NCBI GenBank assembly: GCA_019638355.1
Contig: JAHBTY010000001.1
Span: forward strand, 1,178,001-1,242,000
Length of the DNA stretch: 64,000 nt
Direction: 5' to 3'
Source of the DNA: Cyclobacteriaceae bacterium
GTDB taxonomy: Bacteria; Bacteroidota; Bacteroidia; Cytophagales; Cyclobacteriaceae
Numbering within the stretch: the first letter of the stretch is position 1; each line of letters opens with the position of its first letter. The translations under genes and the position numbers were made by a program. Positions 20,622 through 31,581 of this stretch are shown in pieces. The notes beneath the pieces are model-generated. The model was not told the origin of the DNA. It ran no database searches and was given only the letters and a program-made list of their open reading frames with translations.

Positions 20622-21824
20622 ATGAGTCAATATTTACGCGCAAAAGTGGCAGGATTTAAGACCGCAAATCAAGCCAAGGAAAAAGGAATATATCCGTATT
20701 TCAGACCTATCGAATCTGCTCAGGATACAGAAGTCTATATTGGCCACAAAAAGGTACTGATGTTTGGTTCGAACTCGTACCTGGGTCTTACTAATCATCC
20801 GAAGATTAAGGAAGCGGCCAAGGATGCGATAACCAAATATGGTAGCGGCTGTGCGGGTTCAAGGTTCCTGAACGGAACACTTGACATACATATAGAACTG
20901 GAGGATAGAATTGCTTCATTTCTTAGCAAAGAAGCCGCTGTAATTTTCAGCACGGGCTTTCAGGTTAATCTTGGAGTGCTTTCATGTCTGACAGGCAGGA
21001 ATGATTACCTCCTGCTCGATGAATACGATCATGCTTCTATTATAGATGGAGCCAGGCTTTCGTTCTCGCGTGTAATTAAGTACGCTCACAACAATATGGG
21101 TGACCTTGAGCTAAAGCTAAGTCGGCTGCCTGAGCAATCAATAAAGCTAATTACCGTAGATGGCATATTTAGTATGGAGGGCGATATTGCCAAACTGCCC
21201 GAAATTGTTGAGCTGGCAAAGCAGTATAATGGAACCGTAGTTGTTGACGATGCACACAGCCTCGGAGTATTAGGGGCGGGTGGAGCGGGAACAGCTTCTC
21301 ATTTTGATCTTACCGATCAGATTGATATTATAACCGGAACCTTTAGTAAATCCCTGGCTTCGTTGGGTGGATTTGTAGCCAGCGACAGAGCCACCATTGA
21401 GTATCTGAAACATCATGCACGCTCGCTGATCTTCAGTGCAAGTATGACCCCAGCTTCAGCAGCAAGTGGGCTTGCAGCACTCGATATTATACAAACTGAG
21501 CCTGAGCATATGCAAAAATTATGGGCAAATACCCATTATGCCATACGGTTGCTAAAACAGGAAGGTTTTGATATTGGTGCAACAGAGAGTCCTATTATTC
21601 CAATTTATATCAGGGATAATAATAAAACATTCTTAATGACAAAACTACTTCAGGAAGAAGGCGTTTTTGTTAACCCGGTAGTATCACCGGCTGTTGCCTC
21701 TGATTCCTCCCTGATTCGCTTTTCGCTTATGGCTACTCATTCATTTAGTCAGATTGAAGAGGCGGTCGATAAAATGGCGAAAGTTTCAAAGCAAATTTCA
21801 TCTATATCGCTCGTAAAGGCTTAG
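20622..21824 (+). CDS. spt: Serine palmitoyltransferase (alpha-oxoamine synthase)
   Basis: 400-residue PLP enzyme of fold type I, condensing serine with a long-chain acyl-CoA to 3-ketosphinganine. Visible features are the pyridine-stacking region at YDHAS (His137), [12 protein letters not shown] (Asp210, His212) and the Schiff-base Lys243 in [12 protein letters not shown]. The N-terminal [20 protein letters not shown] matches bacterial SPT rather than BioF or Kbl. Context is decisive: it heads an operon of ceramide and inositol-lipid genes. AONS activity is the alternative but unlikely. The next gene begins 2 nt after its stop. Confidence 0.92.
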
Positions 21825-21826
21825 TA

Positions 21827-22954
21827 ATGAGTAGTGTTAAGATTGTACACGTTAACTCCAAAAGGGAACTCCAGTCATTTATTGACTTCCCGCATGAGCT
21901 GTTCAAAGCAGATAAGAACTATGTTCCTGAGCTATTTGTGGCTCAACGCGATTTACTGACGCCAGGCAAGCATCCATTCCATGAACATTCTCAGGTACAG
22001 GCATTTCTTGCATATCGCAATGAAAAAATAGTTGGCCGGATTGCGGCAATATCAAATAGTAACCACAACATCTTTAATAAAGCAAATGATGGTTTTTTTG
22101 GTTTTTTTGATTGCGAGAATAACAAGGATGTAGCGGCCCATCTTTTTAGCGAGGCAAGCGAATGGTTAAAAAATAAGGGGGCAAATACACTCATTGGTCC
22201 AACTAATTTTTCAACCAATGAAACCTGCGGCTTGTTGGTTGATGGATATGACAGTCCTCCAACAATCATGATGACCTATAACCCATCCTATTATAGAGAC
22301 TTGGTAGAGGGATTCGGTTTTAGAAAGAAGGCGGATTTGTTAGCATATGCGTTTGGAGTAGAAGGTTATGATGATAAACCTTTGAGACTGATTAATACTC
22401 TTCAGGCGCGATTAAAAAACAGGGGAGTTACTATTCGCAACGTGAGCTTAAAGAACTTTAATGAAGAGGCAGCCAAAATCCGTGAAGTCTATAATGCTGC
22501 ATGGGACAAAAATTTGGGGTTCGTTCCAATGACGAACCATGAATTTGATTACCTGGCCAAGGATATGAAGCTGCTGTTGGATCCGGATTTTTGTCTGGTA
22601 GCAGAATATGAGGGGAAGTTTATTGGCTTTGCATTAGCGATCCCAGACCTTAATCAAATCCTTATAAAAATCAAGAAAGGCAGATTGCTCCCCTTTGGAT
22701 TGTTCAAACTGCTCTTTCAGCGTAAGAAGATAAATGCTTTGCGCATTATTGCACTGGGTGTATTAGAGGACTATCGCAAGATGGGAATTGAGGCATGCTT
22801 TTATGGCCAAATAATAAAGTCCTACAGGGAGAAGAATTTTAAGATGGCTGAAGCCAGTTGGGTGTTGGAGAACAATGAATTGATGAACCGGGCTCTTTTG
22901 CAAATTAATGGTGTGCCCTACAAGCGATATAGAATATTCGAGAAATCATTATGA
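21827..22954 (+). CDS. GNAT-like acyltransferase, candidate bacterial ceramide synthase
   Basis: 375-residue cytoplasmic protein with GNAT-fold traits: QAFLAYRNEKIVGRIAAISN in the N-terminal half, a central NFSTNETCGLLVDGYDSPPT, and LRIIALGVLEDYRKMGIEAC near residue 310, which resembles an acyl-CoA-binding loop. In Caulobacter the ceramide synthase bCerS is a GNAT-superfamily N-acyltransferase encoded near spt and cerR. The immediate spt-GNAT-reductase order here suggests the same N-acylation of the sphingoid base. Orthology to bCerS is inference; the family is commonly annotated only as hypothetical or N-acetyltransferase. Confidence 0.7.
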   Translation: MSSVKIVHVNSKRELQSFIDFPHELFKADKNYVPELFVAQRDLLTPGKHPFHEHSQVQAFLAYRNEKIVGRIAAISNSNHNIFNKANDGFFGFFDCENNKDVAAHLFSEASEWLKNKGANTLIGPTNFSTNETCGLLVDGYDSPPTIMMTYNPSYYRDLVEGFGFRKKADLLAYAFGVEGYDDKPLRLINTLQARLKNRGVTIRNVSLKNFNEEAAKIREVYNAAWDKNLGFVPMTNHEFDYLAKDMKLLLDPDFCLVAEYEGKFIGFALAIPDLNQILIKIKKGRLLPFGLFKLLFQRKKINALRIIALGVLEDYRKMGIEACFYGQIIKSYREKNFKMAEASWVLENNELMNRALLQINGVPYKRYRIFEKSL

Positions 22955-30013: not shown

Positions 30014-30631
30014 ATGCGAAGAAAGATGGAAAAAAAATTTATATCTAATTCTTCTGAGTCGCAGCGAATGTTTAAGCGTGACTGGATGGAAGCCTTATCC
30101 AAAGTGCATTTTTCGGTCCCGTTGTTTATTTATGTTCCCGTAATTTTGTATTTCGGCTGGAAAGGCTTTGTTGTGGCTGCAATCACAGACTTTCTGCTGG
30201 CGATTGTGGGCGGGCTGTTTGTCTGGACTTTTACGGAATACATTTTACATCGGTTTGTATTTCACTTTGTACCTGCATCCAATTGGGGCCAACGGCTGCA
30301 TTTTATTTTTCATGGTGTACATCATGATTACCCTAATGATTCCAAACGATTGGTCTTGCCTCCCTCTGTCAGTATTCCATTGGCAACCGGCTTTTACTTT
30401 TTATTTAATGCCATGTTACCAACTCAATATTTGTATCCTTTTTTTTCAGCCTTTATTTCGGGATATTTATTTTACGACATTTCGCATTATGCTTTGCATC
30501 ATGCTAATTTTAAGAGTTCATTTTGGAAGAGGTTAAAACAACATCACATGCTTCATCATTATACTGATGCCACGAAAGGATATGGCGTGAGTTCTTCCTT
30601 TTGGGACAAAATTTTTCGATCAGACTTTTAA
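30014..30631 (+). CDS. Fatty-acid/sterol-desaturase family hydroxylase, paralogue B
   Basis: 205 residues from the ATG at 30014; 30026 is an alternative and an upstream TTG at 29984 is unlikely. His motifs: EYILHRFVFHFV, HGVHHDYPNDSKRL, HYALHH and QHHMLHHYTDATKGYGVSSSFWD. It is a membrane di-iron hydroxylase of the Scs7/FAH type. Its place in the sphingolipid operon, 5 nt before the inositol-phosphoceramide synthase candidate, points to hydroxylation of the ceramide acyl chain or the sphingoid base. Paralogues A and C sit with the two efflux loci. Confidence 0.88.
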   Translation: MRRKMEKKFISNSSESQRMFKRDWMEALSKVHFSVPLFIYVPVILYFGWKGFVVAAITDFLLAIVGGLFVWTFTEYILHRFVFHFVPASNWGQRLHFIFHGVHHDYPNDSKRLVLPPSVSIPLATGFYFLFNAMLPTQYLYPFFSAFISGYLFYDISHYALHHANFKSSFWKRLKQHHMLHHYTDATKGYGVSSSFWDKIFRSDF

Positions 30632-30636
30632 TAGTT

Positions 30637-31581
30637 GTGAAACAGTCGTCTGTGGGTTCGTCCAAATCCCTGTTTTCAGTCAAAGATGTAGCAGCGGTAG
30701 CCTCAGGTTCAATAGCCTATTTGGTATTGGCTTATATTATTATTGGATTTAAAGCCGATCAAATTGTGCTCGTGGGAATATTCAATGCCCTCTATTTTTC
30801 ATCATTTCAGACTCGGAAATTAATATTGGGCTTTCTCATCTTTATAGTGTTTTGGGTACTCTTCGACAGTATGAAGGCTTTCCCTAATTACCTCTTCAAT
30901 ACCGTACATATTGAAAGTCTTTACAATGCAGAAAAAGCACTATTTGGAATTCATAGAGAAGGTACCTTACTCACGCCCAACGAATACTTTAAAGCCAATG
31001 GCCGCCTATTCCTTGACTTATTGGCCGGACTGTTCTACCTGTGTTGGATACCAGTGCCATTAGCATTTGCTGTTTATCTCTTTATCCAGAACAGGCTTGC
31101 TTTTCTACAATTCTCGCTCACTTTTCTGGTGGTTAATTTAATTGGCTTTGTTATATATTATCTGTACCCCGCAGCCCCGCCCTGGTACGTGGAAAATATT
31201 GGATTTCATTTTATTCCACACACACCTGGTAATGTGGCTGCTTTATCGTCCTTTGATCAAATTACCGGAGTGCCGGTTTTTGCCGCATTATATTCGAAAA
31301 GTTCTAATGTGTTTGCAGCCATGCCTTCCCTTCACTCAGCCTATCCTTTAATTGTATTTTATTATGGACTGAAATACAAGATTGGCATGATGAACATCTT
31401 CTTTGGTATAGTAGCAATAGGTATTTGGTTTGCGGCAGTATACTCACGCCATCATTACTTACTTGATGTTTTTCTTGGAATTGGATGCGCTGTTGCTGGA
31501 ATTGTTCTCTTCAATTGGCTTGAACTAAAAAGTACAATAGTTCAAAAGTTCCTTACAAAATACCACTCCCTTATCCGGTAG
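30637..31581 (+). CDS. PAP2/AUR1-like inositol-phosphoceramide synthase candidate
   Basis: 314 residues from a GTG at 30637, 5 nt after the upstream stop. Six or more transmembrane segments are visible. Motifs are YPAAPPWY (178-184), AAMPSLHSAYP (about 227-237) and YSRHHYLLDVFLGI (269-282), the split PAP2 phosphatase signature arranged as in AUR1-type inositol-phosphorylceramide synthases. It would transfer phosphoinositol from PI to ceramide. A general lipid phosphatase is the alternative, but the operon partners favour the synthase. It is the last gene of the sphingolipid operon. Confidence 0.84.
   Translation: MKQSSVGSSKSLFSVKDVAAVASGSIAYLVLAYIIIGFKADQIVLVGIFNALYFSSFQTRKLILGFLIFIVFWVLFDSMKAFPNYLFNTVHIESLYNAEKALFGIHREGTLLTPNEYFKANGRLFLDLLAGLFYLCWIPVPLAFAVYLFIQNRLAFLQFSLTFLVVNLIGFVIYYLYPAAPPWYVENIGFHFIPHTPGNVAALSSFDQITGVPVFAALYSKSSNVFAAMPSLHSAYPLIVFYYGLKYKIGMMNIFFGIVAIGIWFAAVYSRHHYLLDVFLGIGCAVAGIVLFNWLELKSTIVQKFLTKYHSLIR

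Follow-up and report, generated by a model that had tools for sequence, protein, structure and literature searches.

A joined run of ceramide and inositol-phosphate head-group genes in a Cyclobacteriaceae bacterium, on DNA shared between genera

Introduction

What lipid would a bacterium make with a run of genes that opens with a serine palmitoyltransferase (SPT) and closes with a relative of AUR1, and how does such a run come to lie between a conjugation module and a recombinase? The question is posed by a 64,000-nucleotide stretch of the genome of a Cyclobacteriaceae bacterium (assembly GCA_019638355.1, contig JAHBTY010000001.1, positions 1,178,001 to 1,242,000), referred to below as the window, in which eleven open frames, all on the + strand, occupy 20622-31581. 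The best explanation, held at a probability of about 0.76, is that these genes form one operon for inositol phosphoceramide (IPC), controlled by an HxlR-family regulator via a captured promoter copy, and passed between genera in a recombinase-bearing island.

In the proposed pathway SPT would condense serine with an acyl-CoA, and a GNAT-type protein would N-acylate and an SDR reduce the product, in either order, to give dihydroceramide, whose N-acyl chain an SCS7-like enzyme would probably 2-hydroxylate. A myo-inositol-phosphate synthase (MIPS) would provide inositol phosphate, to be joined to CDP-diacylglycerol by a phosphatidylinositol-phosphate synthase (PIPS); a PgpA-family phosphatase would then take off the extra phosphate to leave phosphatidylinositol (PI), from which the AUR1-like protein would move phosphoinositol onto ceramide. 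A predicted DUF5686 barrel and a probably exported DUF4833 protein are likely to act where the pathway reaches the periplasm or the outer membrane. The adjacent HxlR protein probably controls the operon through a captured copy of its own promoter region, and the whole would have moved between genera within an island that carries a recombinase, is sited at a tRNA-Arg gene and adjoins a conjugation module.

Layout of the operon

The eleven genes, in order, are as follows.
20622..21824, + strand: serine palmitoyltransferase, SPT (NF047600, the CFB-type SPT model, 724.7 bits against a cut-off of 640; GTFSKS motif)
21827..22954, + strand: GNAT-type N-acyltransferase, probable ceramide synthase, bCerS-like (PF00583, a short match at E 8.4e-7)
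22951..23925, + strand: extended SDR, probable ketosphinganine/ceramide reductase, CerR-like (PF01370, 6.5e-34; GASGFLG and YGISK)
23937..25262, + strand: myo-inositol-phosphate synthase, MIPS (PF07994, 7.7e-105; best PDB match 7nwr, an inositol-3-phosphate synthase, E 5.1e-166)
25262..25708, + strand: PgpA-family phosphatase, probable PI-phosphate (PIP) phosphatase (PF04608, 5.1e-37), in the relative position of BT_1525
25705..26088, + strand: GtrA-like membrane protein (PF04138, 1.6e-16), in the position of BT_1524
26095..28644, + strand: DUF5686 protein with a CarboxypepD_reg domain and a predicted C-terminal Omp85-like barrel (PF18939, 6.8e-57)
28665..29360, + strand: phosphatidylinositol-phosphate synthase, PIPS (NF052561, the BT1523 subfamily, 396 bits against a cut-off of 350)
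29364..29924, + strand: DUF4833 protein, probably exported (PF16117, 2.9e-46; N-terminal hydrophobic stretch)
29984..30631, + strand: fatty-acid hydroxylase, SCS7/FA2H-like (PF04116, 1.2e-17)
30601..31581, + strand: AUR1-like PAP2 transferase, probable inositol phosphoceramide synthase (start uncertain, GTG at 30640 likely)

A preliminary description of this DNA had proposed a set of eleven genes on one strand, overlapping or closely spaced, and a check of the frames bears this out. Neighbouring genes overlap or are separated by at least 2 and at most about 100 bp, the figure varying with the start codon chosen: SPT and GNAT are separated by 2 bp, GNAT and SDR overlap by 4, and SDR and MIPS lie about 11 bp apart if the ATG at 23937 is taken as the start of MIPS; MIPS overlaps PgpA by 1, PgpA overlaps GtrA, and gaps of 6, 20 and 3 bp follow between GtrA and DUF5686, DUF5686 and PIPS, and PIPS and DUF4833, respectively. 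The largest gap, that between DUF4833 and the hydroxylase, is 59 bp or more by start codon, and the hydroxylase and AUR1-like genes are 8 bp apart when the GTG at 30640 is the start. Pfam or NCBIfam families are clear for ten of the eleven genes, the GNAT being the exception, and they uphold the further proposal that genes for ceramide and for an inositol-phosphate head group stand in one run, with a layout that fits one transcript. Together the families cover every step to what is probably a 2-hydroxylated IPC; the hydroxylase and the barrel-like DUF5686 had been left uninterpreted in the preliminary description. A sigma-70 scan over 20000-32200 finds 35 promoter-like sites as against 33.9 in shuffled sequence, and terminator-like sites over the same interval number 9 as against 9.4, so that neither is in excess.

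Recurrence of the joined operon

Is this arrangement peculiar to its host, as first supposed? It is not: the joined layout recurs in other Bacteroidota, and the operon is real, functionally coherent and more widespread than had been thought. The comparison draws on a class sample of 395 genomes, a host-family sample of 196 genomes and a set of named relatives, the best 80 of 581 confirmed; named-relative and sampled-genome loci come partly from the same genomes, and the counts overlap. SPT is present at E 1e-120 in 40 class-sample genomes, 38 of them over the curated cut-off, and PIPS in 27, with MIPS in 22 of the 40 SPT-positive genomes. SPT, MIPS and PIPS are joined in ten of the 40 (G000, G114, G203, G229, G231, G280, G302, G344, G363 and G380). 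The same gene order is found in nine other genomes of this sample with some genes missing: four are without PgpA and SDR matches, others lack single genes, and the copy in G344 ends at a contig end. Fifteen genomes of the host-family sample have PIPS; in 12 of them its distance from SPT is about 6 to 9 kb, and in three it is on another contig.

Among the best 80 of the 581 relatives, SPT, GNAT, MIPS, PIPS and the AUR1-like gene occur together in 39 loci, every one collinear with the window. All eleven genes are present in 15 of these, and individually DUF5686 is found in 38, the hydroxylase in 37, SDR in 33, DUF4833 in 28, PgpA in 26 and GtrA in 24. The joined set is without MIPS in five loci, and four loci have no SPT; eight loci have MIPS or PIPS in an incomplete set (matches reach the locus end in six), and 24 hold ceramide genes with neither MIPS nor PIPS (matches reach the locus end in ten). 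The genera of this set include Mucilaginibacter, Pedobacter, Chitinophaga, Taibaiella, Rufibacter, Pontibacter and Chryseolinea. Chance adjacency of the operon genes is ruled out by the shared order in nine genomes and the 39 collinear loci.

The variable presence of SDR, PgpA and GtrA in the joined loci, and the 24 loci with ceramide genes and neither MIPS nor PIPS, could be taken to mean that the term operon is over-read and that two adjacent transcription units under unrelated control lie here. Against such a division stand the overlaps or few-base gaps that run through SDR, MIPS, PgpA, GtrA and DUF5686, the lack of an excess of internal promoters or terminators, and the recurrence of the joined run in many genera, and it is highly improbable. 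The companion claim, that the ceramide and head-group sets are usually at separate loci, stands for families f34 and f58 of the class sample, in which it applies to all eight of the genomes that have both SPT and MIPS. In Bacteroides thetaiotaomicron SPT (BT_0870) and a ketosphinganine reductase (BT_0972) are described as unclustered with the inositol-lipid genes (PMC9278070). The three ceramide genes of sphingolipid-producing Bacteroidota are likewise said not to be close together (PMC11334938), which is true of part of the class sample only. In the titles and abstracts of the literature searched, no description was found of an operon joined from SPT to AUR1, or of genes of this kind carried by a conjugative element.

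Several variants of the locus are seen. Joined operons without MIPS are present in L101, L119, L120, L130, L148 and L065. In the genome that holds the last of these (G323) a PF07994 match is found nowhere, yet SPT, PIPS and the AUR1-like gene are kept, and because PIPS is there without MIPS its inositol phosphate must come from elsewhere. Dyadobacter and Runella loci (L090, L091, L107, L117, L125, L129, L133 and L141) have SPT-GNAT-SDR-DUF5686, DUF4833 and sometimes the hydroxylase, with a PIPS-like match of about 30% in most; going by its genes, this variant perhaps makes another head group. The only Sphingobacterium locus, L153, has ceramide genes and no MIPS or PIPS, in agreement with the report that the inositol-lipid cluster is absent or infrequent in that genus (PMC9246714), from which S. 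spiritivorum has been reported to make ceramide phosphoinositol (Naka 2003, cited in PMC9246714).

The ceramide half

A GNAT homologue is present in all 40 SPT-positive genomes of the class sample, and on comparison by eye at least 25 of them have it no more than about 600 bp away from SPT; the protein itself has no PDB sequence match at E 0.1. A ceramide role for GNAT and SDR is supported by plasmid neighbourhoods. On an Escherichia coli plasmid a curated SPT (NF047599, 600 bits against a cut-off of 500), an acyl carrier protein (ACP), an epimerase, an acyl-AMP ligase and yghO, a GNAT, stand together, and Caulobacter has five ceramide genes of the same kinds (PMC11324152). Plasmids of Rubrobacter and Streptomyces (Actinomycetota) carry an aminotransferase, a GNAT and an SDR in immediate succession; SPT models are the best matches of these aminotransferases, yet the scores are below every cut-off. 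The concern raised at the outset, that GNAT and SDR might fall in non-lipid families, is not borne out, in that homologues adjoin SPT-type genes on plasmids of other phyla, and both proteins appear to group with the ceramide type. The E. coli plasmid (L221, NZ_MG591698.1) is 354 kb long, and lptF and lptG adjoin its ceramide-type genes.

The hydroxylase aligns with yeast SCS7 (4zr1) at E 6.2e-33 over residues 18-197 of the 200 amino acids (aa) compared, with the metal-binding His boxes aligned, and it would probably hydroxylate the N-acyl chain at the C2 position. The ceramide phosphoinositol of S. spiritivorum reportedly contains fatty acids that include a 2-hydroxy form.

The inositol head-group half

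PIPS has the full CDP-alcohol phosphotransferase motif DxxDGxxARx8GxxxDxxxD and matches PDB 6h53 at E 6.1e-21. For the AUR1-like protein the PDB matches at E 0.1 are exclusively to AUR1, the best being 9vj3 (E 2.1e-13), and the PSLHS and HHYLLD (HHxxxD) motifs are kept, whose His-His-Asp we take to be the catalytic residues. The five head-group genes stand in the same order as MIPS, the PgpA-type phosphatase, the GtrA-like protein, PIPS and the AUR1-like protein of B. thetaiotaomicron, BT_1522-BT_1526 (PMC9246714, PMC8791184), an order also seen in L071 and L073. Knock-outs of BT_1526-1522 lose inositol lipids (PMC9246714, PMC8791184), and BT_1525 has been identified as a PIP phosphatase (PMC9246714). 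BT1524 is termed GtrA-like and its mutant is said to have lowered IPC (PMC8791184); PMC9246714 gives BT_1524 no lipid phenotype.

The envelope proteins

Export-type membrane proteins had also been proposed as part of the operon. Nothing about GtrA points to export, while DUF5686 is a credible outer-membrane candidate with a predicted Omp85-like barrel. Its structural model (pLDDT 75.6) has BamA, SAM50 and TamA as top Foldseek matches, with E from 3.9e-8 and probability 1.00, in alignments of about 400 columns and with a TM of about 0.5 for targets that are barrels only. BT_1527, a carboxypeptidase-regulatory-like protein, lies near both kinds of inositol-lipid cluster (PMC9246714), and going by that description BT_1527 and DUF5686 may be the same protein.

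DUF4833 is fused with PIPS in a single frame of 405-437 aa in seven of the 47 PIPS frames of the named-relative set, and such fusions also occur in L058, L065, L068 and L069. The fusions keep the hydrophobic stretch of DUF4833; they link the protein with PI synthesis and make a location in the periplasm likely. Its confident model (pLDDT 88.7) has no PDB fold match at E 0.001, and its sequence none at E 1.

Probable control by HxlR

How might such an operon be switched? Three features bear on this.
20241..20440, + strand: decayed copy of the HxlR 3' end and the HxlR/NmrA promoter region (87 of 124 columns, 70%, E 3e-9)
20340..20371, + strand: double palindrome upstream of SPT, putative HxlR operator (pattern CTATACn3-5GTATA)
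31591..31965, - strand: HxlR-family regulator, probable operon controller (PF01638, 4.9e-29)

The decayed copy includes a match of 20 out of 23 to the HxlR 3' end. Within the window the palindrome pattern occurs only at 20340-20371 and 31986-32018, with seven matches on the two strands where 0.03 are expected. When the host is compared with G539, a genome of another genus, 23 of 24 half-site positions are identical, while in the surrounding sequence 183 of 248 are (Fisher p 0.012, a single test chosen post hoc). HxlR probably controls the operon via the putative palindromes before SPT. NmrA, DoxX and LigB genes come after HxlR, and a link of this group to quinone or oxidative stress is our guess from the families.

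Transfer between genera

How the operon came to be where it is can be approached through four further features.
9..9176, + strand: conjugation module of TraG (cut by the window edge), TraJ, TraK, TraM and TraN (TIGR03783, 03782, 03781, 03779 and 03780, all over cut-off)
10875..51997, no strand assigned: block also present in G539, of another genus, as pieces of 96.6-99.8% identity, with 35696-37134 and 47118-48549 outside
20187..31595, no strand assigned: stretch missing as one block in a relative, G014, where 20186 and 31596 lie 40 bp apart (G014:C3:187042/187083)
54682..56496, + strand: large serine recombinase (PF00239, PF07508) overlapping tRNA-Arg(ccg) at 56296-56368

The partner of the shared block is contig C13 of G539. 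The rpoB loci of the two genomes are only 79.2% identical, and on the same G539 contig the chromosome past the recombinase (window coordinates 67733-74077) matches in pieces of 67-71%, whereas the operon genes are 95.5-98.6% identical. The near-identity of the block set against rpoB indicates that operon-bearing DNA has passed between the two genera. When five joined proteins from 58 loci and the window are placed in a midpoint-rooted tree, the window pairs closely with G539, beside the Chryseolinea group. PIPS is found in the host only among the five host-genus genomes of the family sample; one of these, G483, has SPT without PIPS.

The vehicle is suggested by what surrounds the block. Just upstream of the Tra module (L228) come MobC, a relaxase, a YWFCY coupling protein, RteC and a methylase-helicase, and on the far side a tmRNA lies beyond tRNA-Arg(ccg). 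In G539 a recombinase with 58.7% identity to that of the window is placed likewise at tRNA-Arg(ccg). With relaxase, coupling protein, type IV secretion genes and recombinase, all the gene kinds of an integrative and conjugative element (ICE) are present around the operon, and it is plausible from this gene content that the operon is the cargo of such an element.

Whether the operon entered the island as a cassette or was there from the start turns on G014, whose flanks around the empty site are 91-92% identical to the window and whose rpoB locus is 91.7% identical to that of G539. The operon stands between direct repeats, the decayed HxlR copy on its upstream side and the intact gene on its downstream side, that could delete it precisely, and only a single clean empty site was found; both favour ancestral presence followed by loss from G014. 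Three of the five left-flank copies compared (host, G539 C13, G014, G158 and G539 C1) are without the operon, which speaks for insertion. The left flank matches G158 and the second G539 region (C1) at 85-88% up to window position 20251 and then diverges, however, and since their sequence is unrelated past that point these two copies weigh little. Because the clean empty site is a single one, loss is kept as a possible, if somewhat doubtful, account.

At 47268-48494 the block is broken by a Mutator-family transposase, and G539 is uninterrupted there. In G539:C13 the part of the block from 44262 to 51997, compared over 44230-51997, has the opposite orientation and stands at the block's other side, and the 1.4 kb piece 35696-37134 is absent from both G539 and G014.

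Weighing the evidence

Several observations count against the operon, its product, its control or its vehicle as proposed. The AUR1-like protein reaches 341 bits with NF052609, the phosphoinositol dihydroceramide synthase model, short of the cut-off of 480. GNAT homologues are found at E 1e-10 in 284 of the 395 class-sample genomes as against 40 with SPT, so that GNAT presence alone is no proof of ceramide synthesis; this breadth may come from family members that N-acylate other amines, for example capnine. No signal peptide is apparent by eye in the SDR, unlike the Caulobacter CerR, which has been reported as periplasmic (PMC11087976). The Bacteroides-type promoter consensus is absent from the window. 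A longer 33-base operator pattern has no third site in the 4.49 Mb genome (its reversed control has none), and, being built from the two sites it finds, shows just the lack of a third; the promoter copy may also be a functionless relic. A tra homologue was not found over G539:C13:207000-318000, nor a repeat of the tRNA/tmRNA region marking a left end in 124 kb (a short core would escape), and the conjugative element is therefore undelimited. Flectobacillus major, finally, is the exception in which lipid bands disagree with genes (PMC9246714), so gene content is no guarantee of lipid.

The first of these bears on the question of what is made. PI and ceramide might both be formed with an end product other than IPC, the PAP2-type protein moving another head group or the PI being used elsewhere, for instance in a surface polymer. 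Besides the low NF052609 score, Dyadobacter and Runella keep SPT-GNAT-SDR, DUF5686 and DUF4833 without a MIPS or AUR1-like match in the locus, and these parts may serve other head groups; in B. thetaiotaomicron inositol has been linked to the capsule (PMC9246714). The sole PDB matches to AUR1, the kept motifs and the gene order of the studied B. thetaiotaomicron cluster argue the other way, and a different end product is unlikely.

Comparison with known systems

What, then, is new here? Each of the two gene sets, that for the head group and that for ceramide, is known by itself. The novelty lies in finding them joined, with a hydroxylase and envelope proteins besides, in the regulation that HxlR is likely to exert, and in an exchange across genus boundaries. 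The likeness to BT_1522-BT_1526 extends to a CarboxypepD_reg protein nearby, BT_1527. Unlike that cluster, the operon starts with SPT, GNAT and SDR and holds a hydroxylase and DUF4833; the two are likened by published descriptions, the structure match of MIPS excepted. For the sphingolipid-producing Bacteroidota, the steps beyond SPT were called uncharacterised in 2022 (PMC9246714), and one reductase, BT_0972, was reported in the same year (PMC9278070). Caulobacter, compared by gene kinds, likewise has SPT, reductase and N-acyltransferase in one region, with spt (CC_1162), cerR (CC_1164), cerS (CC_1154), acpR and aasR, but the operon described here has no ACP or acyl-ACP synthetase gene and its predicted head group is inositol phosphate rather than phosphoglycerate. 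Bacteroidetes SPTs have been reported to use acyl-CoA (PMC11324152).

The fungal IPC pathway shares AUR1-like and SCS7-like proteins with the operon, from which a 2-hydroxylated product similar to the fungal one is predicted; here, unlike in fungi, PI would be reached via a PI-phosphate intermediate and ceramide through a GNAT-type N-acyltransferase. Bacteroidetes conjugative transposons of the Tra type also have TraG/J/K/M/N, relaxase, YWFCY coupling protein and RteC beside cargo, but the window differs from them in the large serine recombinase at tRNA-Arg on the other side and in a lipid pathway as cargo.

The joined operon offers a single unit for expressing the whole pathway, its gene positions name the likely ceramide GNAT and SDR, and the hydroxylase, DUF5686 and DUF4833 become candidate members. 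Lateral exchange has been inferred from a distribution at odds with phylogeny (PMC9246714), and an operon on a shared block is a concrete route for it. A bolder and rather unlikely extension would have a complete eukaryote-like (2-hydroxy) IPC pathway move between genera as one HxlR-stress-switched ICE cassette, with its own Omp85-type DUF5686 delivering sphingolipid to the outer membrane.

Other genes of the shared block

To the left of the operon lies an AcrB-family efflux pump gene at 10943-14077 (- strand) and to the right, at 37214-41337 (+ strand), a membrane-fusion protein gene followed by a frame of 1030 aa, each with TetR genes near. The block holds two more FA_hydroxylase genes, at 17267-17902 (- strand) and 43523-44191 (+ strand), and a patatin-like phospholipase gene at 41324-42103.

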